A DNA stretch of 64,000 nt from Gluconacetobacter diazotrophicus PA1 5 (GTDB lineage Bacteria; Pseudomonadota; Alphaproteobacteria; Acetobacterales; Acetobacteraceae), in contig NC_011365.1 of NCBI RefSeq assembly GCF_000021325.1, positions 310,001-374,000 of the forward strand, given 5' to 3'. A program made the translations under genes and the position numbers. Numbering within the stretch: position 1 is the stretch's first letter; every line of letters starts with the position of its first letter. This document shows, in pieces, positions 38,717 through 48,463 of the stretch. The notes below the pieces were generated by a model that worked only from the letters and a program-made list of their open reading frames with translations, was not told where the DNA came from and ran no database searches.

Positions 38717-38746
38717 CCAACGGTTATAGGTACTGACCCGTGTGTG
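38717..38746 (+). repeat. IS630 left terminal inverted repeat
   Basis: The end begins CCAACGG and reaches CGTGTGTG; it matches the complement of 39847-39876 with about seven mismatches. Confidence 0.85.
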
Positions 38747-39307
38747 CCCATTTCCTGAGTCCGATGGATCGGATGGTGTCAGGCAGGGCGGCAAGCTTGT
38801 TCCAGGCGGAACAGGCGGCGTCGATGATATGATCGATGCCGTCGAAGACGGTGTTGGACAGCCAGTTGGCGCGCAGGAACTGCCAGACATTTTCGACCGG
38901 GTTCAGTTCGGGCGCGCGGGACGGCAGGAAGATCAGGCTGATATTGCGGGGCAGCTTCAGCTTGTCGGTGGTATGCCATCCTGCGCGATCGAGCAGCACG
39001 ACGGCGTGGGCACCGCGGACGACGCAGCGCGAGATTTCCTCGATGTGCAGTTGCATGCTGGCGGTGCCGATGAACGGGAGCGCCAGGCCGGCGGCTTTGC
39101 CACGCGCCGGACAGATCGCGCCGAACAGCCAGGCATTCTCGTAGCGCTGATCAGCCGGCTGGCGTGGCCGCGTGCCACGCCGGGCCCATTGTCGGACGAT
39201 GCCGTTCTTCTGGCCGATCCGGGCCTCGTCCTGGAACCAGATCTCGATCGGCTTGCCCTTGGGCAGATGGCCGGTATGGGCATTCAGGATGCGGGGGAAG
39301 TTTTTTT
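38724..39307 (-). CDS. IS630 transposase, frame B (DDE catalytic part), reached by -1 frameshift
   Basis: After a -1 slip on the A7 run the frame reads 'KNFPRILNAHTGHLPKGKP' and 'IEIWFQDEARIGQKNG' (first Asp), then 'HAVVLLDRAGWHTTDKL' (second Asp) and 'LPSRAPELNPVENVWQFL' (Glu), the IS630 DDE triad in order. An internal ATG at 39056 could start a shorter product without the first Asp, so the fused product is the likely active enzyme. The frame ends 7 bp inside the left end of the element. Confidence 0.85.
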
Positions 39308-39793
39308 GAATGCCTCCATGACGCCAGCGTCCTGACCCGGGTGACGTGGCCGGGCGCTGACATAGGAAAAACCAAGCCGTTTCAGTAGAGTGGACACATG
39401 ACGCTCATGATAGACGACGCCGAAGCGCTCTTCGATCACGCGTTGCAGATCGACCCGGCGCCAGCGCACCACGCCATCGCGCTGCCGATCCGGGCCTGCC
39501 TCGACCAGGGCCTTCAATTCGGTCTGCTGTGCGACACTCAGACGGCAGGCCGGCCCTGCGTGCAGATGATCGCGCAGGCCATCCGGCCCTTCAGCATTGA
39601 AGCGGTGAACCCAGTCCCGCAGCGTCTGGCGGTCCATGCCGCCTACGCGGGCCGCATCGGTGCGGCTGGCCCCGTCACGGATCGCCGCCAGGGCCAGAAG
39701 CCGGCGCGCAGCGTTCGCCTGCCGGCTGCGCGCCGCAAGTCGCCTCAGCTCAGAGGCCGAATAGTCATCCCGTAGCTTCACCGCTCTCGTCAT
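39284..39793 (-). CDS. IS630 transposase, frame A (DNA-binding part)
   Basis: The first ~169 residues of the transposase hold two helix-turn-helix segments ('ASELRRLAARSRQANAARRL', 'TDAARVGGMDRQTLRDWVHRF') and a winged region ('VIEERFGVVYHERHVSTLLKRLGF'), as in IS630 proteins. The ATG at 39793 has GGGAGG about nine bases upstream. The frame ends at 39284, just after the A7 run at 39301-39307 (minus strand) where a -1 shift would lead into the catalytic frame. Confidence 0.88.
   Translation of the reverse strand: MTRAVKLRDDYSASELRRLAARSRQANAARRLLALAAIRDGASRTDAARVGGMDRQTLRDWVHRFNAEGPDGLRDHLHAGPACRLSVAQQTELKALVEAGPDRQRDGVVRWRRVDLQRVIEERFGVVYHERHVSTLLKRLGFSYVSARPRHPGQDAGVMEAFKKTSPAS
39301..39307 (-). 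promoter_or_regulatory. A7 slippery run for transposase -1 frameshifting
   Basis: On the coding strand the sequence is TTC AAAAAAA CTTCC. Frame A reads AAA AAA ACT and stops 8 codons later; re-reading one A gives AAA AAC TTC and enters the DDE frame. Programmed -1 shifting on A runs is known in IS630-family elements. Confidence 0.75.
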
Positions 39794-39846
39794 CTGCCAG
39801 ATCCTCCCAAAATCAAGAGAATCAGAGCCGGCGCCGTTCGTCACTT

Positions 39847-39876
39847 CACACACGAGTCAGTGGCTACGGCCTTTGG
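39847..39876 (-). repeat. IS630 right terminal inverted repeat
   Basis: Read inward on the minus strand it begins CCAAAGG and reaches CGTGTGTG, mirroring the left end. Confidence 0.85.
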
Positions 39877-39976
39877 TATAAATAGCTTTTATTCACCACA
39901 ACGAAAAAACATCGATGCAATTCCATTCTTGCCTAAAAATATATGGAACATTCCCAATATCGACCTTGGCAGCGTA

Positions 39977-40496
39977 ATGCATTTCATTTCTGGACTTCCC
40001 CGCTCGGGCTCGACGCTGCTGGCGGCCATCCTGCGACAGAACCCCCGCTTCAGCGCGTCCATGAGCAGCCCTGTCTGCGGCCTGGTCCGCAAGCTGCTGG
40101 ACGGGATGAGCGCCAATAGCGAATTCGCGTCCTTCATCACCGACGAACAGCGCCGGCGCATCCTGCGCGGGGTGTTCGAAAATTATTACGGCGACAATTT
40201 CACGTCCCGAACCGTGTTCGACACCAACCGGGCCTGGAGCAACTGCCTGCCTCTGCTGGGCGACCTGTTCCCCGGCTGCCGGGTCATCGCCTGCGTGCGC
40301 GACGTGCCCTGGATACTGGACAGTATCGAACGGCTGGTCCGCCGGAACTGCCTGGCGGCGTCGGGCATGTTCAATTTCGATTCCGCCGGCTCGGTCTATA
40401 CGCGGGCCGAGGCCGTGGCACGGGCCGACGGCATGCTGGGCTACGGCTACAACGCCCTGAAGGAAGCCTTCTATGGCGAGCATGTTAATTTCTGCT
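39977..40496 (+). pseudogene. Sulfotransferase-family gene, 3' end lost at an IS21 insertion
   Basis: The intact N-terminal ~170 residues begin 'MHFISGLPRSGSTLLAAILRQNP', the 5'-phosphosulfate (PAPS) loop of sulfotransferases, and include the 3'-phosphate region 'VIACVRDVPWILDSIERLVRRN'. Family members usually run to 250-300 residues. Here the frame enters the left end of an IS21-family element and meets a TGA at the junction (40496-40498). The rest of the gene is not found on the far side of the element, so it was deleted or moved. Its own promoter region was also hit by the IS630 element 100 bp upstream. Likely non-functional. Confidence 0.82.
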
Positions 40497-40568
40497 GAGA
40501 TTTGACCCTGGGTTTTCATCGAGAACTGACCCGGCCTTTGGTTATCTCTGCTATGTTTTATGGGCTGG

Positions 40569-41339
40569 TCAAGCGGTTGCCTTTTCCTTCCGGTTCCTGG
40601 GGGCGGCGGAGCTTGCGCGGAACCGGTAGCTGTCATTTCCGGTTTCGAGGATATGACAGTGGTGGGTAAGGCGATCGAGCAGGGCTGTCGTCATTTTGGG
40701 ATCACCGAAGACTTCGCCCCATTCGCTGAAGCTCAGATTGATGACGCTGGTGCGCTCGTAGAGACGGCTGAGGAGATGGAACAGCAGGGCACCGCCTGAT
40801 GCGCTGAACGGCAAATAGCCAAGTTCGTCCAGGATCACGAGATCGAGGCGCAGGAGACGTTCCGCGATCTGTCCTGCGCGATTGGCGGTTTTTTCCTGTT
40901 CGAGGGCGTTGACGAGGTCGACCGTGGACCAGAACCGTATCTTCTTGCGGTGATGTTCGATCGCCTGCACGGCAAGTGCGGTGGCCAGATGGGTCTTGCC
41001 GGTTCCTGGGCCACCAATGAGGACGACGTTGTCGGCACGGTCGATGAAATCCCCGGCATGGAGTTGACGGACCATGGCCTCGTTGACCTCGGCGGCCGAG
41101 AAATCGAACCCTGCCAAATCTTTGTAGGCCGGGAACCTGGCAGTCTTGGTTTGATAGGCGATGGAGCGCACCTCTCGCTCGGCGAGTTCCGCCTTCAAAA
41201 GCTGGGAGAGGACGGGGATGGCGGCCTCGAATGCCGGCGCACCCTGTTCGGTCAGTTCGGCCGTGGCCTGGGCCATGCCATACATCCGCAGGCCGCGCAG
41301 CATGACGACGAGGGCACCGGCCGCGGGATCATGACGCAT
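40569..41339 (-). CDS. istB: IS21 transposition helper ATPase
   Basis: IstB is an AAA+ ATPase that helps IstA choose and join targets. The 256-residue protein has Walker A '[10 protein letters not shown]' near residue 106-115, Walker B '[12 protein letters not shown]' and '[23 protein letters not shown]' sensor-region sequence (split around ~185-207). The ATG at 41339 overlaps the istA end, so the two are translationally coupled. It appears intact. Confidence 0.94.
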
Positions 41340-42852
41340 GACGGGCCTCCCCGCGCAGGGCGTCATACCGTCCGGTATCGGCCTGAGGCTCGCGTTCGAG
41401 CACCAATGCCTGCGGCGCGTCGAGCCTGGGTGCTCCTGTTTTCTTGGCGTCCGTCAGACGATGCAACGTATTGAGGACGTGTGTCTTGGTGGCTACTCCC
41501 TCCTCGAGCGCGAGTTCAACCGCGCAAAGCACGGCCTGCTCATCATGCTGCAGCACCAGGGCGAGGATCTCGACCATTTCCCGGTCGCCGCCCGTGCGCC
41601 GGAGGAGGTGCGTCTGCAGCGTCCGGAACGCCTCGGGCAATTCAGAGAAGGGCGCGCCATTGCGCAAGGCCCCGGGTTTGCGCTGGAGCACCGCCAAGTA
41701 ATGCCGCCAGTCATAGATCGTGCGACCGGGCACGCCGTGGGACCGCTCGACGATCCGGGGATGTTCGCATAGGATCCGCCCCTCGGCCGCGATCACCAAC
41801 CGGTCGGGATAGACGCGCAGGCTGACCGGCCGATTGGCAAAAGAGGCGGGCACACTGTAGCGGTTGCTTTCGAACTGCACGAGGCAAGTCGGCGAAACCC
41901 GTTTGGTATGTTCGACGAACCCGTCGAACGGGCGCCCTGGAACCATCAGGTGAGGCACTTCCGCCGCATGGGCCTCGGCGAGGCTGCCGGGCAATTCGAC
42001 ATGCCTCAAGATAGTCCAACGTTCCCGGCAACGCGCCTCGAGCCAGACGTTCAGGGAGGCCAGATCAGGAAAATGCGGCATCTCCTGCCAGATCTGCCGC
42101 CGGGCGTCCTGGACGGTCTTCTCGATTTGACCTTTCTCCCAACCCGCTGCCGGATTGCAGAACTCCGCCTCGAACAGATAATGGCTCACCAGGGCCGAAA
42201 AACGCAGATTGACCTGGCGGACCTTGCCGGGCCCAACCCGGTCCACGGCGGTTTTCATATTGTCAAAAATACCTCGACGCGGCACCCCGCCCAAAACGCG
42301 AAAGGCTTCCGTCAGCGCGTCGAACAGCATCTCGTGAGTCTGGAGCGGATACGCCCGCAGAATGAAGGCCCGGCTGTAGGACAGCTTGGTGTGGGCGACC
42401 TGCAGCTTGACGCGCCGCCCCCCGATCACCGCCCAGTCCTCTCCCCAGTCGAACTGGAAGGCCTCTCCGGGTTGAAAGCGCAACGGAACGAACACGCCGC
42501 GTCCCGTCGTCTGCCGCGCCCTTTGCTGTTCCGCCTTCCAGTTCCGGATAAAGGCCGCAACCCGTCCATACGATCCGTCATAACCCAGCGCTACAAGATC
42601 CACATGCAGGCGCCGCCCCGTGCGGCGCTGCTTGCGCGACTTTGACGTCTCCAGAGCAAGCCAGGTCGCCAGTTTCTCCGCAAACGGGTCCAGCCGGCTC
42701 GGACGCTCGGCAACCTTGAACTGCGGCTCAACCGTCTCCGCCCGGAGATACTTGCGGATCGTGTTGCGCGACAATCGCGTCCGACGCTCAATCTCGCGGA
42801 TCGGTACATGATCCCGGTAATGCCACCGCCGGATCACACTCAACAATTCCAT
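41329..42852 (-). CDS. istA: IS21 transposase
   Basis: IstA is the DDE transposase. The 507-residue protein opens with a helix-turn-helix ('[22 protein letters not shown]', split around 7-28), the first catalytic Asp lies in '[16 protein letters not shown]', the second in '[14 protein letters not shown]', and the Glu in '[16 protein letters not shown]'. An AAAGGAG precedes the ATG at 42852. The gene seems intact, so the element may still be active. Confidence 0.94.
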
Positions 42853-42950
42853 GCTGATCACTCCTTTAACCCCCGGACAGTTGCTCCGGGGAAGTGTCAG
42901 ACACGGGTCAATTCTCAATGAAAATTTCCGCCCCTACAGGGTCAGTTCTC

Positions 42951-43244: not shown

Positions 43245-43922
43245 ATGAAACTTTTCACTCCTGTCCCGCTGGTCGCCGTCATCGGGGGCGCGGCGGCCGC
43301 TCTCACCCTCGGCGTGGCCTATTCCGGGCATTCCGGTCCGGGCGTGGCCCAGGCCTCGACGCATGGCGCCGCATCCGCGGTTCCGGCCAGCACGCCGGCG
43401 ACGGCGGCCCCGGCCGCCGCACCGGCCGCTTCACCGGCGGAACTGTCGCAATCTTCGGGACAATGGACCTATCGGTGCCTCTATGCCCAGGCTCCGGCCA
43501 CAGGACCGGCTCTGTGCACGATCGAACAGCACCTGATCGTTCAGAACCCGCAGAAGAAGGCCGTGCAGGTCGGTGACGTGCTCTTCAGCCGGAGCAGGAC
43601 CGCCGGGGGCAGCCTGTCGGCAACCTATCAACTGACACTGCAGACGCCGCTGATGGTATCGCTGGTCCGGCCGCCCACCATTGCCATCGACGACGGCGCG
43701 CCGGTGGCGCTGACATGGCAGGTCTGTACAGCCAATGGCTGCATCGCCCGTATGGCGCCCCTTCCCGATGCCGTCCTGTCGAGCGCGCGGCACGGCAAGA
43801 CCGGGCATATCCAGATCGGAACTGTCCAGGGTGGCGCGGTGACGATCAATTTCGAACTCGCCGGCCTCGATACGGCCGTGACGACACTCGATAGCTGGGC
43901 CCACCGACAAAGCCCGTCATAG
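43245..43922 (+). CDS. Invasion-associated locus B (IalB) family protein
   Basis: The 225-residue exported protein has an N-terminal signal or anchor ('PLVAVIGGAAAALTLGVAYSG', split), an Ala/Pro-rich linker (~35-65) and the IalB domain: 'GQWTYRCLYAQAP..LCTIEQHLIVQN', 'PLMVSLVRPPTIAIDDG', and 'QVCTANGCIARMAP' with a Cys pair that likely forms a disulfide, near the C-terminal third. In Bartonella IalB helps red-cell invasion, but the family is widespread in free-living alphaproteobacteria, where its job is unclear. Confidence 0.87.
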   Translation: MKLFTPVPLVAVIGGAAAALTLGVAYSGHSGPGVAQASTHGAASAVPASTPATAAPAAAPAASPAELSQSSGQWTYRCLYAQAPATGPALCTIEQHLIVQNPQKKAVQVGDVLFSRSRTAGGSLSATYQLTLQTPLMVSLVRPPTIAIDDGAPVALTWQVCTANGCIARMAPLPDAVLSSARHGKTGHIQIGTVQGGAVTINFELAGLDTAVTTLDSWAHRQSPS

Positions 43923-44127: not shown

Positions 44128-45075
44128 CTATCGCATGATCAGGAAGTGGTCGGCCAGCAGTCCGCAGAACAGCAGGAACAGGTAGGCCAGGGAATAGCGG
44201 AACGCCCGACGCGCCGGCCGGTCGCCCGTCAGGCTGACGCCGGCCTCGTCCTGTCGATCCGTCAACACGCCAACCGCGCAGGCGACGAACCCGGCATCCA
44301 GCAGCGACGCGACACCGGTATAGAGCCAGCCCGCCTGATGCAGAAACGACGGCACCAGCGACACCGCCGACAGGATCAGCGTGTAGAACAGGATCTGCCA
44401 CCGCGTATGCCGCGCACCCCGCACGACCGGCAGCATCGGGATTCCGGCGCGACCGTAATCCTTGCAGGCATACAGCGACAGCGACCAGAAATGCGGCGGG
44501 GTCCAGAGAAAGACGATGGCGAACATTACCACCGGCAGCACGCCCAGCGACCCGGTGGTGGCGGCCCACCCGATCATCGGCGGGAATGCGCCCGCGGCCC
44601 CGCCGATCACGATGTTCTGCGGCGTCGAACGCTTCAGCCACATCGTGTAGATCACGGCATAGAAGAAGATCGAGAACGCCAGGATAAACGCCGCCAGGGC
44701 GTTGGCTGCCAGCCACATCAGCAGGACCGACGCCACCGACAGGCCGATGCCGAAGCCCAGCGCCTGGTCGTCACGAATGCGGCCGTCAGGGATCGGGCGC
44801 CGCGCGGTGCGGGTCATCACCGCGTCGATGTCGCGGTCATACCACATGTTGATGGCACCGGCGGCCCCGGAGGCCATGCAGATGCACAGGATGCTGACAG
44901 CGGCGATCAGCGGATTGATCGGTCCCGGCGCCATGGCCAACCCGGCCGCGCCGGTGAACACGACCAGCGAAATCACCCGCGGCTTCAGCAGCGCGAACCA
45001 GTCGCGGGCCTCGGTTCCGACCAAAGCGGCGTCGAAACGGGTTACGGCGCCTTCGGTGGTTGCCGCGCCGCTCAC
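44128..45075 (-). CDS. ctaB: Protohaem IX farnesyltransferase (haem O synthase)
   Basis: This UbiA-family membrane enzyme adds a farnesyl group to haem B to make haem O for terminal oxidases. The 315-residue protein has about nine helices, the prenyl-diphosphate Asp motif 'NMWYDRDIDAVMTRTARRP', and the second 'LYACKDYGRAGIPMLPVV' loop. It overlaps the oxidase subunit I homologue by ATGA. Since a bo3- or ba3-type quinol oxidase elsewhere would also need haem O, this gene can stay useful even if its neighbour is not a working oxidase. Confidence 0.95.
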   Translation of the reverse strand: MSGAATTEGAVTRFDAALVGTEARDWFALLKPRVISLVVFTGAAGLAMAPGPINPLIAAVSILCICMASGAAGAINMWYDRDIDAVMTRTARRPIPDGRIRDDQALGFGIGLSVASVLLMWLAANALAAFILAFSIFFYAVIYTMWLKRSTPQNIVIGGAAGAFPPMIGWAATTGSLGVLPVVMFAIVFLWTPPHFWSLSLYACKDYGRAGIPMLPVVRGARHTRWQILFYTLILSAVSLVPSFLHQAGWLYTGVASLLDAGFVACAVGVLTDRQDEAGVSLTGDRPARRAFRYSLAYLFLLFCGLLADHFLIMR

Positions 45076-46436
45076 GCCCGTGCTCCGTGGGCCAGGATAC
45101 CGGCGAAGGAGTCACGCGGTGCGGGCGACGGCACCGTCCATTCCAGGGTCCGGGCACCCGGCCCCCAGTAATTCGCGGCCAGCGGACGCGTGCGTCCCGC
45201 CAGCGTCAGGGCGATGGCGGCGACGAAGGCCAGCATCGACAGGCCCAGCAGCACCACGCCGGTCGATACGAAAGCCGGCTGATGCGGAGCCAGCAACAGG
45301 ATGCTGCCCCCCACCGCCAGCGCGACATGCAGCCGGCCGGCCCGTTCGGGGCAGGCGCGGCCCGTCATCTTGCCGATCCAGTAATAAAAACCGGCGAATG
45401 TCGCGAACAGCGCGGCCGGCAGCGCCACGGCATGCCCGGCCGCCGGACCGCCCAGCAGCGCCAGGACCGGCCCCGCGACCAGCAGCACAGCAAAGGCGCA
45501 GGCCCACAGCATCGGCACGCGGAAAGCCGCCCGCCCGCCCAGGACGGTGGCGCCCCAGGCCGCCAGCAGGACCAGCATGGGCACCGCGATCGTCGCCTGT
45601 TCGATCAGGGGCCGCACGACGGATTGCACGGCCAGCCCATCAGCGAACAGGTCATGCACCCAGATGGTCGCACCCCCCACGGACAGGACGACCATGGCCC
45701 CCAGCGCCGCGCCACGCAGCCGCAGGGCGACGCCTGAAAAGGTTTCGACCACCTGGCATACGATGCCCGCGGCCGGCAGCAGCAACAGGCCGATTTCGGG
45801 ACCCGAAAAGGCGCGCAACGCCAGTTCGGCCTGCCGCCCGCCGGTACCGGCCAGCAGGCCGCGCGTCAGCGAGGCCGCCAGCACCGGCAGCACGATCACC
45901 ATCATCATCCCGGTCAGCGCCTGCGCCCAGGCGAACAGCGGCATGTCGCGCAGCGCCATACCGGGGCGGCGCATGTTCAGCACCGTCGCGACCATGTCGA
46001 TCGACAGGCCCAGCATCGCGGCACACCACAGCAGCATGCCCGGCGCCGTCGCCATCCCGGACAGGACCAGCGCGAAGCTGACGGCCAGGCCGGCCCAGCA
46101 CAGCAGGTTCAGCCGGCGGAACGCCATATCCGGCGCCCCCAGCAGCAGCGGCACGAACCAGGACCCGAACCCGCCGGTCAGGGCCGGCAGGGCACAGAAC
46201 AGGATCATCAGCGCGCCGTGATCGATCGTCATGCGGTGCCACGGGGCGGAGGCGGCCCCGTCCAGCCCAGCCTGACCGACCTGCAGCAGAAGCGCGAGGC
46301 CGCCGCCCGCCAGCCCCGCCAGCACGGCCAGGACCAGATACAGGCTTCCGACCGTCTTGTGGCCGCATGCGCGGTTCCATCGCGCCGGGAAGCCACCGGT
46401 TCCGATCCCTGCCCGAACCTGCCCGTCAGTCGGCAT
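45072..46436 (-). CDS. Degenerate haem-copper oxidase subunit I homologue without the O2-reducing site
   Basis: This 454-residue, ~12-helix protein aligns along its length with cytochrome c oxidase subunit I ('LPALTGGFGSWFVPLLLGAPDMAF', split, ~83-106; 'FAGFYYWIGKMTGR' ~347-360; 'NYWGPGARTLEWTVPSPAP' at the end). Both low-spin haem ligands seem kept: His73 and His335. The active site is not: the CuB-His/Tyr motif GHPEVY is SGPEIG (211-216), the HH pair is His261-Asp262, and the high-spin haem His is Ala333. The K-channel Lys is also absent. An AGGAG precedes ATG 46436. It is coupled to ctaB. The open frame is intact, so it is probably expressed, perhaps as a haem-binding or assembly protein. 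Confidence 0.8.
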   Translation of the reverse strand: MPTDGQVRAGIGTGGFPARWNRACGHKTVGSLYLVLAVLAGLAGGGLALLLQVGQAGLDGAASAPWHRMTIDHGALMILFCALPALTGGFGSWFVPLLLGAPDMAFRRLNLLCWAGLAVSFALVLSGMATAPGMLLWCAAMLGLSIDMVATVLNMRRPGMALRDMPLFAWAQALTGMMMVIVLPVLAASLTRGLLAGTGGRQAELALRAFSGPEIGLLLLPAAGIVCQVVETFSGVALRLRGAALGAMVVLSVGGATIWVHDLFADGLAVQSVVRPLIEQATIAVPMLVLLAAWGATVLGGRAAFRVPMLWACAFAVLLVAGPVLALLGGPAAGHAVALPAALFATFAGFYYWIGKMTGRACPERAGRLHVALAVGGSILLLAPHQPAFVSTGVVLLGLSMLAFVAAIALTLAGRTRPLAANYWGPGARTLEWTVPSPAPRDSFAGILAHGARA

Positions 46437-46588: not shown

Positions 46589-47326
46589 TCAGCCGGCCAT
46601 GGTTTCGACCGAAGGCGCCGCGCCGTCACGCGGCAGCGTCACCAGCGTGAACAGCCCGGCGGGGGGCACGGACTGGATCGTCGCCTGCGCCAGGTCGGCC
46701 GGCGGCAGGAGGGATTCGATGGCGAAATCGGGATGCCAGCCCAGCGAGTGCGAGGCCCGCGCCATGCCGCGTTCCACCGCCAGCCGCACGCCGCCCGTGG
46801 CCAGGAAATGATTGACGAACAGGATGTGGCCACCCGGCCGCACCACGCGCTTCAGCTCGCACAGCAGCCGGCGCGGATTAGGCACGACCGAGGCCACGAA
46901 CATCGCGACCGCGATGTCGAACGAGCCATCGGCGAAGCGCGTCTCCTCGGCATCCATTTCCAGCAGCGCGTCGACATTGCGCAGGTTCATCCGCGCCACG
47001 CGCTGACGCGCCCGGTCCAGCATGTCCCCCGACAGGTCGATGCCGGTGATGCGCTTGTCGGATCGGTAATGGGGCAGCGCCAGGCCGGTGCCGACCCCCA
47101 CTTCCAGCACCGCCGAGCCGGGCAGGCCGTTGACCGCCGCGACCGCGCGCTTGCGCCCGAAGGCCGAGACCCCGCCGAACAGGGCGTCATACACGCCCGC
47201 CCAGCGGCGATAGGCGGCTTTCACGGCTTCGGCATCAAGGGCCGAACGCGGCGCGGGGGCATAGCCACCCGCGATGCCGGCCGCGGAACCCGTCTCGGCG
47301 GGGGCGTCTTGAAGAACTTCGCTCAT
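46589..47326 (-). CDS. SAM-dependent methyltransferase, PmtA-like (phosphatidylethanolamine N-methyltransferase)
   Basis: The 245-residue protein has a ~30-residue leader, then 'VKAAYRRWAGVYDALFGGVSAFGRKRA' (about 35-61), strongly like the Rhodobacter-type PmtA N-terminus, and the SAM motif 'AVLEVGVGTGLALPHY'. 'ITGIDLSGDMLDRARQRV' and 'LKRVVRPGGHILFVNHF' complete the class I fold. PmtA makes phosphatidylcholine from phosphatidylethanolamine at the membrane. A related quinone methyltransferase role (UbiE-like) is the main alternative. GAGGA lies six bases before the ATG. Confidence 0.82.
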   Translation of the reverse strand: MSEVLQDAPAETGSAAGIAGGYAPAPRSALDAEAVKAAYRRWAGVYDALFGGVSAFGRKRAVAAVNGLPGSAVLEVGVGTGLALPHYRSDKRITGIDLSGDMLDRARQRVARMNLRNVDALLEMDAEETRFADGSFDIAVAMFVASVVPNPRRLLCELKRVVRPGGHILFVNHFLATGGVRLAVERGMARASHSLGWHPDFAIESLLPPADLAQATIQSVPPAGLFTLVTLPRDGAAPSVETMAG

Positions 47327-47458
47327 CAGGAGTCCTCTCTGCCCTGCCGGGCGATTGTCTTCAAGTGGCCGTCGCACCAAAGTCCGCTGTCGCGCCGCAA
47401 AATGCCTGCCCTTCCCATTTGTTCGTGCCACCTTGGCCGCATCCCCTCGCCCACCCGA

Positions 47459-48463
47459 TCAAGCCCCGCCATCCAGCCGGCGCAGGATGCAGTCCCAGAT
47501 CAGGCCCGCCGAGTTGATATCATCGAACCGGTCTATTTCCTGCAGGCCGGTCGGCGACGTCACATTGATCTCGGTCAGCCAGTCGCCGATCACGTCGATC
47601 CCGACGAAGATCAATCCCTTTTCACGCAGCATCGGTCCGATCGCCTCGCAGATCTCGCGGTCGCGCGGGGTCAGTTCCACCTTCGCCGCCTTGCCGCCCA
47701 CATGCATGTTCGACCGGGCCTCGCCCTGCGCGGGAACGCGGTTGATGGCACCGATCGGCTGGCCGTCCGCCAGGATGATACGCTTGTCGCCGCGCCGGAC
47801 CGCGGCCTCGTACCGCTGGATCATCAGGGGCTCGCGCGAGCGGGCGAAATGCATCTCCAGCAGGGAATTCAGGTTTTCGTCATCCTCACGGATGCGGAAG
47901 ACGCCCGCGCCGCCATTGCCGAACAGCGGCTTGACGATGATGTCCCGCCACTGGGCGCGGAAATCGCGGATGGCTTGGACGTCCCACGTCACCAGCGTGG
48001 GCGGCATCAGGTCGGGATAATGCGTGACCAGCAGCTTTTCCGGCGCGTTGCGCACCGATTCCGGGTCGTTGACCACCAGCGCCCGGCCCGGGCCGGTACC
48101 GTGGACATGTTCCAGCATATGCGTGGCGGTAATATAGGCCATGTCGAACGGCGGGTCCTGACGCATCAGGATCACGTCCATCCCCGACAGGTCCAGCACC
48201 CGTTCCTCGCCCAGCGCCGCGTGATCGCCCGCCACGCGCTGGACGCGTGCGGGGCGCGCCCGTGCGGTCAGCCGCTCGGTTCGCGTGCCGCCAGCATGCC
48301 CGTCGGTGCGTCCCTCGCGCAGGCTCAGGCCCTGCACATGGTAGACGAACAGTTCGTATCCCCGGGCCTGCGCCTCCAGCATCAGGGCAAAGGTGGAGTC
48401 GCCATTGATGTCGATCCCGGCGAGGGGATCCATCTGTACGGCGACCTTCAACGGGCGGGACAT
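47459..48463 (-). CDS. gshB: Glutathione synthetase
   Basis: GshB joins gamma-glutamylcysteine and glycine using ATP. The 334-residue ATP-grasp protein has '[25 protein letters not shown]' (about 7-31), '[21 protein letters not shown]', '[20 protein letters not shown]' (ATP-binding Lys and Gly loop) and '[20 protein letters not shown]', all typical. CGGAGG precedes the ATG. greB is upstream on the same strand. The product serves the glutathione pool that the peroxidase at 16321 may use. Confidence 0.96.

Follow-up and report, generated by a model that had tools for sequence, protein, structure and literature searches.

The cytochrome c oxidase subunit I homologue that lies beside the haem O synthase gene ctaB in Gluconacetobacter diazotrophicus PA1 5, here called ctaD', has lost the oxygen-reducing centre and kept both histidine ligands of the low-spin haem, and the gene looks repurposed rather than dying. 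Its product is most likely a membrane protein with a single haem that would help CtaB to supply haem O to the bo3 oxidase.

A degenerate subunit I gene coupled to ctaB

The window, by which we mean the whole stretch of DNA that was analysed (64,000 nucleotides of contig NC_011365.1), carries on its minus strand four consecutive genes in the order gshB, pmtA-like, ctaD' and ctaB:

47459 to 48463, minus strand: gshB (glutathione synthase), conserved upstream neighbour, by profile match and locus comparison
46589 to 47431, minus strand: pmtA-like methyltransferase, conserved upstream neighbour, by profile matches; also found upstream of canonical ctaC (loci L078, L081 and L230)
45072 to 46436, minus strand: ctaD', degenerate cytochrome c oxidase subunit I homologue of 454 aa, by open reading frame, COX1 match, Paracoccus alignment and COX1-fold model
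44128 to 45075, minus strand: ctaB (haem O synthase), TIGR01473 with 327.5 bits against a cut-off of 210.3

The ctaD' frame opens with ATG at 46436, its stop codon ends at 45072 and it contains no internal stop, in agreement with the intact frame of the initial annotation. The coupling to ctaB proposed there is likewise real, because the GTG start of ctaB overlaps the TGA stop of ctaD' (GTGA). On the downstream side, a gene for an IalB-family protein on the plus strand (43245-43922; PF06776, 60.5 bits) faces the ctaD'-ctaB pair. Elsewhere in the window, two frames that are transposase-like by eye (38724-39853 and 40569-42918, presumably IS630-like and IS21-like) flank a sulfotransferase-like frame (39860-40498), which is short and may be truncated.

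The protein matches Pfam COX1 (PF00115) with 154.2 bits, above the curated cut-off of 34.8, and reaches 187 bits with TIGR02891, the NCBIfam equivalog for cytochrome c oxidase subunit I, whose cut-off is 670.75. It belongs to the COX1 superfamily but scores far under what the equivalog requires of a working subunit I. An AlphaFold2 model adopts the COX1 fold (mean pLDDT 83.9, pTM 0.87) with H73 and H335 both inside long helices, and the five solved structures that it matches best, at TM-scores by query of 0.81-0.82, are all chains of aa3 subunit I; this COX1-like pose is favoured by the input, because 20 of the 30 rows of the alignment supplied were canonical oxidases, the other 10 being ctaD'.

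Low-spin haem ligands are kept and the active centre is lost

The window protein was aligned residue by residue with Paracoccus subunit I (chain 1ar1_A, the source of the Paracoccus numbering), and the same columns were counted in 58 distinct ctaD' sequences from 20 genera of Acetobacteraceae, made up of the window protein, those of 49 other loci and eight more from the same genera. The lowest pairwise identity among them is 15%. For the Paracoccus residues we assume the accepted roles as ligands, cross-link Tyr and K-channel Lys. The positions concerned are as follows:

46218 to 46220, minus strand: codon of H73, aligned with Paracoccus H94, a low-spin haem ligand; His in 58 of 58
45927 to 45929, minus strand: codon of W170, invariant in the 58 ctaD' and in 20 canonical rows
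45789 to 45806, minus strand: SGPEIG replacing GHPEVY in the alignment, with loss of the CuB His and the cross-link Tyr (H276 in 0 of 58, Y280 in 0 of 58)
45660 to 45662, minus strand: codon of W259, invariant in the 58 ctaD' and in 20 canonical rows
45651 to 45656, minus strand: HD replacing the CuB HH pair in the alignment (H325 in 29 of 58, H326 in 2 of 58)
45432 to 45434, minus strand: codon of H335, aligned with Paracoccus H413, a low-spin haem ligand; His in 58 of 58

H73 and H335, which the initial annotation had read as the two axial ligands of the low-spin haem, do align with H94 and H413, and neither is replaced in any of the 58 sequences. Its reading of the catalytic centre held as well: the CuB His and cross-link Tyr of GHPEVY are both Gly in the window protein (H276 to G212, Y280 to G216), the high-spin haem ligand is Ala (H411 to A333) and the K-channel Lys is gone (K354 to Leu). 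The replacement of the CuB pair by HD was also correct, with the refinement that H325/H326 correspond to H261/D262, so that one of the three CuB ligands, the equivalent of H325, survives in the window protein; the full set of three CuB His, high-spin haem His and cross-linked Tyr is not present. Besides the columns listed above, H411 is kept in 2 of the 58 sequences and K354 in none. The oxidase reaction is excluded by this loss of ligands. R54, which we take to be the formyl partner of haem A, is retained in 10 of the 58, for which reason haem B or O would fit the site better than haem A. R473 and R474, presumably the haem-propionate Arg pair, are missing from all 58 (0/58 each), which means that the haem pocket has been altered.

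How strict the retention of the two ligands is can be judged from the 189 positions that the window protein covers and that do not vary among 20 canonical relatives. Their median retention is 16 of 58 sequences, and four residues alone, H73, W170, W259 and H335, are kept in all 58. H73 and H335 are also the sole His columns common to the whole set, the next ones reaching 49, 29 and 22 sequences. Misaligned His in the distant rows could be ruled out: in all 58, each ligand lies exactly 16 residues before a conserved landmark (G89 and Y351, respectively) with no gap between, and a loose pattern run on the raw sequences recovers both His motifs in all 58 too. Chance is very unlikely to have produced the same gap-free spacing in every sequence. 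With H276, Y280 and K354 absent throughout, these counts bear out the earlier proposal that the reaction with O2 was lost and the low-spin haem site retained.

A working oxidase or NO reductase whose ligands have been relocated within the protein would be in keeping with membership of the COX1 superfamily and with the CuB-position His that 29 of 58 sequences still have. We consider its probability negligible, as beyond the two low-spin columns there is no His column common to all 58, the ground on which a relocated active site was rejected, and a subunit II gene was not found at the locus.

Gene order and origin

The order gshB-pmtA-ctaD'-ctaB recurs in 50 loci, the window and 49 others, across the 20 genera. 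It was seen in all 20 loci picked for ctaD'-like matches; of 36 loci drawn around ctaB, most of them from genomes in which the match was weak or absent, 29 have it. The draw was not random and leaned towards genomes resembling acetic acid bacteria. The remaining seven ctaB loci comprise one cut at ctaB (L210), four canonical ones (L211, L221, L229 and L230) and two in which ctaB stands alone (L227 and L228). Four of the 20 loci (L066, L067, L068 and L076) encode proteins that match the canonical reference better than they match the window protein, and were classed as ctaD' by their lost ligands. Searches of the 20 and 29 ctaD'-bearing loci with phmmer (E<=1e-6) returned no ctaC or ctaE, the subunit II and III genes, and neither ctaG nor surf1 was found when these loci were compared.

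At the same place, canonical relatives carry pmtA-ctaC-ctaD-ctaB-(ctaG)-ctaE-surf1 (L078, L081 and L230). It follows that ctaD' is the ancestral ctaD in situ, from whose locus the partner genes have been lost, and that its linkage to ctaB is in part a legacy of the ancestral cox operon. In the ctaB tree, the 49 rows linked to ctaD' form one side of a single branch (support 86/83; 92% of 200 bootstrap trees), which is consistent with one origin of ctaD', the support being moderate and the drawn root a midpoint. The tree omits L226 (a bad fragment), L210 (the contig ends at ctaB) and L094 (identical to L081), and L096 and L101 yielded no ctaB.

Two genomes (L227/G014 and L228/G065) have ctaB behind pmtA, and neither ctaD' nor ctaC was found between the two genes; their matches elsewhere are frames of canonical size, of cyoB size or split, and both genomes group with the canonical rows in the ctaB tree. 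CtaB can hence do without ctaD' in some genomes. In the other direction, 17 of the 298 genomes of the family gave no ctaB match (E<=1e-30), 11 of these 17 having a completeness of 90% or more and a contamination of 5% or less, and a ctaD' profile (E<=0.001) found nothing in 13 of them. The other four contain a 788-aa frame (G093), a 633-aa frame and a contig-end fragment (G039) or contig-end fragments (G132 and G166), so no complete frame of ctaD' size was found in the 17 genomes without a ctaB match, the contig-end fragments of three of them being unclassifiable. A COX1 search of five of the 17 (G042, G078, G082, G128 and G220) gave no match in two and one weaker match each in three, in frames of 785-833 aa that we take to be quinol NO reductases.

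Across 190 genomes of the class, the A4 profile (E<=1e-60) matched in 141, three of them Acetobacteraceae. Outside this family all matching open frames are at least 486 aa long, the four shortest (486, 493, 506 and 507 aa) being partly resolved, at a threshold that could miss a divergent ctaD'. One of them, from another alphaproteobacterial family (L234, G349; 507 aa, 477 in a re-read frame), keeps GHPELY, HFHY and the Lys and has QHM in place of the CuB HHM. Judged from these motifs it is a near-canonical subunit I and not a ctaD', and possibly an independent early loss.

This distribution bears on the idea that ctaD' encodes an independent b-type cytochrome, which would use its single low-spin haem to carry electrons or to sense haem or the redox state, and be next to ctaB for historical reasons. 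The retained site is that of the electron-entry haem of the canonical oxidase ancestor, and canonical ctaD already adjoins ctaB (L077, L078 and L081), as such an idea would have it. We regard it as rather improbable, given that ctaC and the other oxidase subunit genes were not found at the locus, that ctaD' lacks several loops of canonical subunit I in the alignment, and that a complete ctaD' was not found in the 17 genomes without a ctaB match.

Intact frames under purifying selection

All 58 frames end at a stop codon and none has an internal one. Single stops inside matches had been flagged by the searches in G194, G072, G259, G191 and G035, and also in G224 and G259; by their coordinates they sit at the ends of frames, and none of the 58 stretches used is interrupted. 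Within Gluconacetobacter, a stop-free orthologue with 68-100% identity occurs in 13 of 14 genomes, the genome of the window and another of the same species included; in the other one (G012, 87% complete), neither a ctaD' orthologue nor ctaB was found.

The dN/dS of ctaD' ranges from 0.10 to 0.39 over 20 pairs. Eight of these, from Gluconacetobacter, Novacetimonas and Komagataeibacter, gave 0.12-0.39 by the Nei-Gojobori method, to be compared with 0.06-0.23 for ctaB, 0.06-0.20 for pmtA and 0.08-0.16 for gshB in eight pairs each, the neighbour genes being taken stop to stop, and ctaD' exceeded ctaB in all eight. The 12 pairs from other genera gave 0.10-0.24, with dS above 1, and hence poorly measured, in nine. 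On these values ctaD' is evolving faster than ctaB, yet not neutrally.

The initial annotation had also considered a relic on its way out, that is, a dead ctaD held in frame only through the coupled translation of ctaB. The GTGA overlap would allow for this, the loss of ctaC, ctaE, ctaG and surf1 from the loci is what decay might leave, and the abstract of Matsutani 2014 reportedly attributes the loss of ctaD function to accumulated mutations. Such a relic is nonetheless very improbable in the light of the dN/dS values, the absence of internal stops and the four invariant residues, both ligands among them, in 58 sequences from 20 genera; the reading was rejected on these grounds. Ligands at the active-site positions, or frameshifted and drifting orthologues, would have spoken against the loss of reaction with retention of a haem site; the sequences were searched for both, and neither result overturned it.

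Other haem and oxidase genes of the genome

Three genes of the genome match COX1: the bo3-type cyoB, ctaD' and a second intact subunit I with SHPAVY for GHPEVY. The last (L002; G000:C1:939637-940965) reads FYSHPAVY where Paracoccus has FFGHPEVY, with Glu replaced by Ala, and adjoins a frame for a subunit II with a C-terminal CxxCH stretch. The ctaB beside ctaD' is the only haem O synthase above the family cut-off genome-wide, two weaker matches of the UbiA family lying below it, and ctaA is located at another place. Among the minus-strand frames after cyoB, we saw no cyoE, and cyoC and cyoD, as we name them from their sequences, are there. With a single ctaB over the cut-off and no cyoE after cyoD, the product of ctaB would be expected to feed the bo3 enzyme. 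The abstract of Matsutani 2014 is likewise said to describe a ubiquinol oxidase operon without cyoE.

A proposed role in haem handling

By ancestry, ctaD' encodes subunit I of an aa3-type cytochrome c oxidase that has since disappeared, and the gene has stayed where it was in the acetic acid bacteria. It no longer has the high-spin haem/CuB centre or the K-channel Lys, nor the presumed haem-propionate Arg pair, and its partner genes are gone from the locus. We propose that the product has become a membrane protein without catalytic function, with a single bis-histidine site for haem. The protein would sit beside CtaB and hold a haem at the old low-spin site, where it may either receive newly made haem O destined for the bo3 ubiquinol oxidase or present haem B to CtaB. 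Handling of haem O, or B, together with CtaB is suggested because the only haem O synthase gene found adjoins ctaD', the bo3 operon shows none of its own and R54 is lost in 48 of 58 sequences. The bound haem, its identity, the contact with CtaB and the delivery to bo3 are what we infer. The initial idea of a haem-O carrier or a partner of CtaB would fit the linkage to ctaB and the shared absence with it. The formation of a CtaA-CtaB complex is reported in a passage of PMC9145763.

We hold the proposal as a whole, a former oxidase subunit with one haem that handles haem O or B with CtaB, with just under even confidence. More tentatively, ctaD' could represent a new class of haem-handling membrane proteins derived from a terminal oxidase. 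Its one task would then be to accept or relay haem O for CtaB and thereby to supply a bo3 enzyme that has no haem O synthase gene in its operon. Two observations argue against a role that is simple or essential: the propionate Arg pair is missing, and two genomes have ctaB without ctaD'.

A published suggestion has to be weighed here, namely that ctaD' is a scaffold that stabilises CtaB in the membrane, any haem serving only its own folding. A structural role of this kind was proposed for the COX1-like protein beside ctaB in Acetobacter, called 'deranged' in the part of PMC10715153 that describes Matsutani 2014, and the linkage and coupling of ctaD' to ctaB agree with it. However, if the protein were purely a scaffold, one would not expect just the two haem ligands to persist in all 58 sequences when the median for canonical-invariant residues is 16, and the same passage has all metal-binding residues lost, which is untrue for the ctaD' sequences studied here. 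We therefore think a scaffold alone unlikely, while giving it real weight, and prefer the haem-handling role. The kept low-spin pair contradicts the printed description and argues against a relic; in the open-licence literature, we did not find the retained pair in print.

The family offers a clear case in which an enzyme reaction was lost and one cofactor site stayed under strict selection across 20 genera, and it corrects the printed description of a gene that has lost all its cofactor-binding residues. The insertion of haem a into oxidases is described as unresolved in a section of PMC5249081, and the transfer of a modified haem from synthase to terminal oxidase is an unresolved problem that ctaD' could help to test. 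If the proposal is true, a low-spin-only oxidase subunit beside ctaB would be a simple natural system for the study of haem delivery.

Comparison with known systems

The gene and its link to CtaB are already in print, and ctaD' is a COX1-family protein, not an oxidase. With CtaD/COX1 of the A-family aa3 oxidases (Paracoccus 1ar1_A) it shares the fold, the gene position and both low-spin ligands; unlike them, it has no high-spin ligand, cross-link Tyr, K-channel Lys, propionate Arg pair or partner subunits at the locus, and the window protein has one CuB-position His left. NorB, the nitric oxide reductase, is defined by a high-spin His and three FeB His, a set that ctaD' does not present, the oxidase-centre columns being lost.

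The 'deranged COX1-like protein' of Acetobacter is, like ctaD', a COX1-like gene product clustered with ctaB, and differs in that all its metal-binding residues are lost according to the passage in PMC10715153, whereas ctaD' keeps the low-spin pair in 58 of 58. The two almost surely belong to the same family, matched here by description, none of the 58 rows being named Acetobacter. The relevant part of PMC5158111 lists ctaB (APT_01774) and ctaD (APT_01775), whose numbers are consecutive, as conserved among three strains of Acetobacter pasteurianus. Passages of two other papers describe the acetic acid bacteria as having no aa3 oxidase and bo3 in all genomes (PMC4007555), and ctaB and ctaA as still functional remnants of the cytochrome c oxidase cluster (PMC6915089, citing Matsutani 2014).

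Finally, Surf1c acts on the aa3 oxidase in Paracoccus, as stated in a section of PMC5249081, and surf1 was not found at the ctaD' loci. Surf1 and the CtaA-CtaB complex could be functional analogues of ctaD', as a helper that would hold haem between CtaB and an oxidase, a likeness of role for which we claim no sequence relation.
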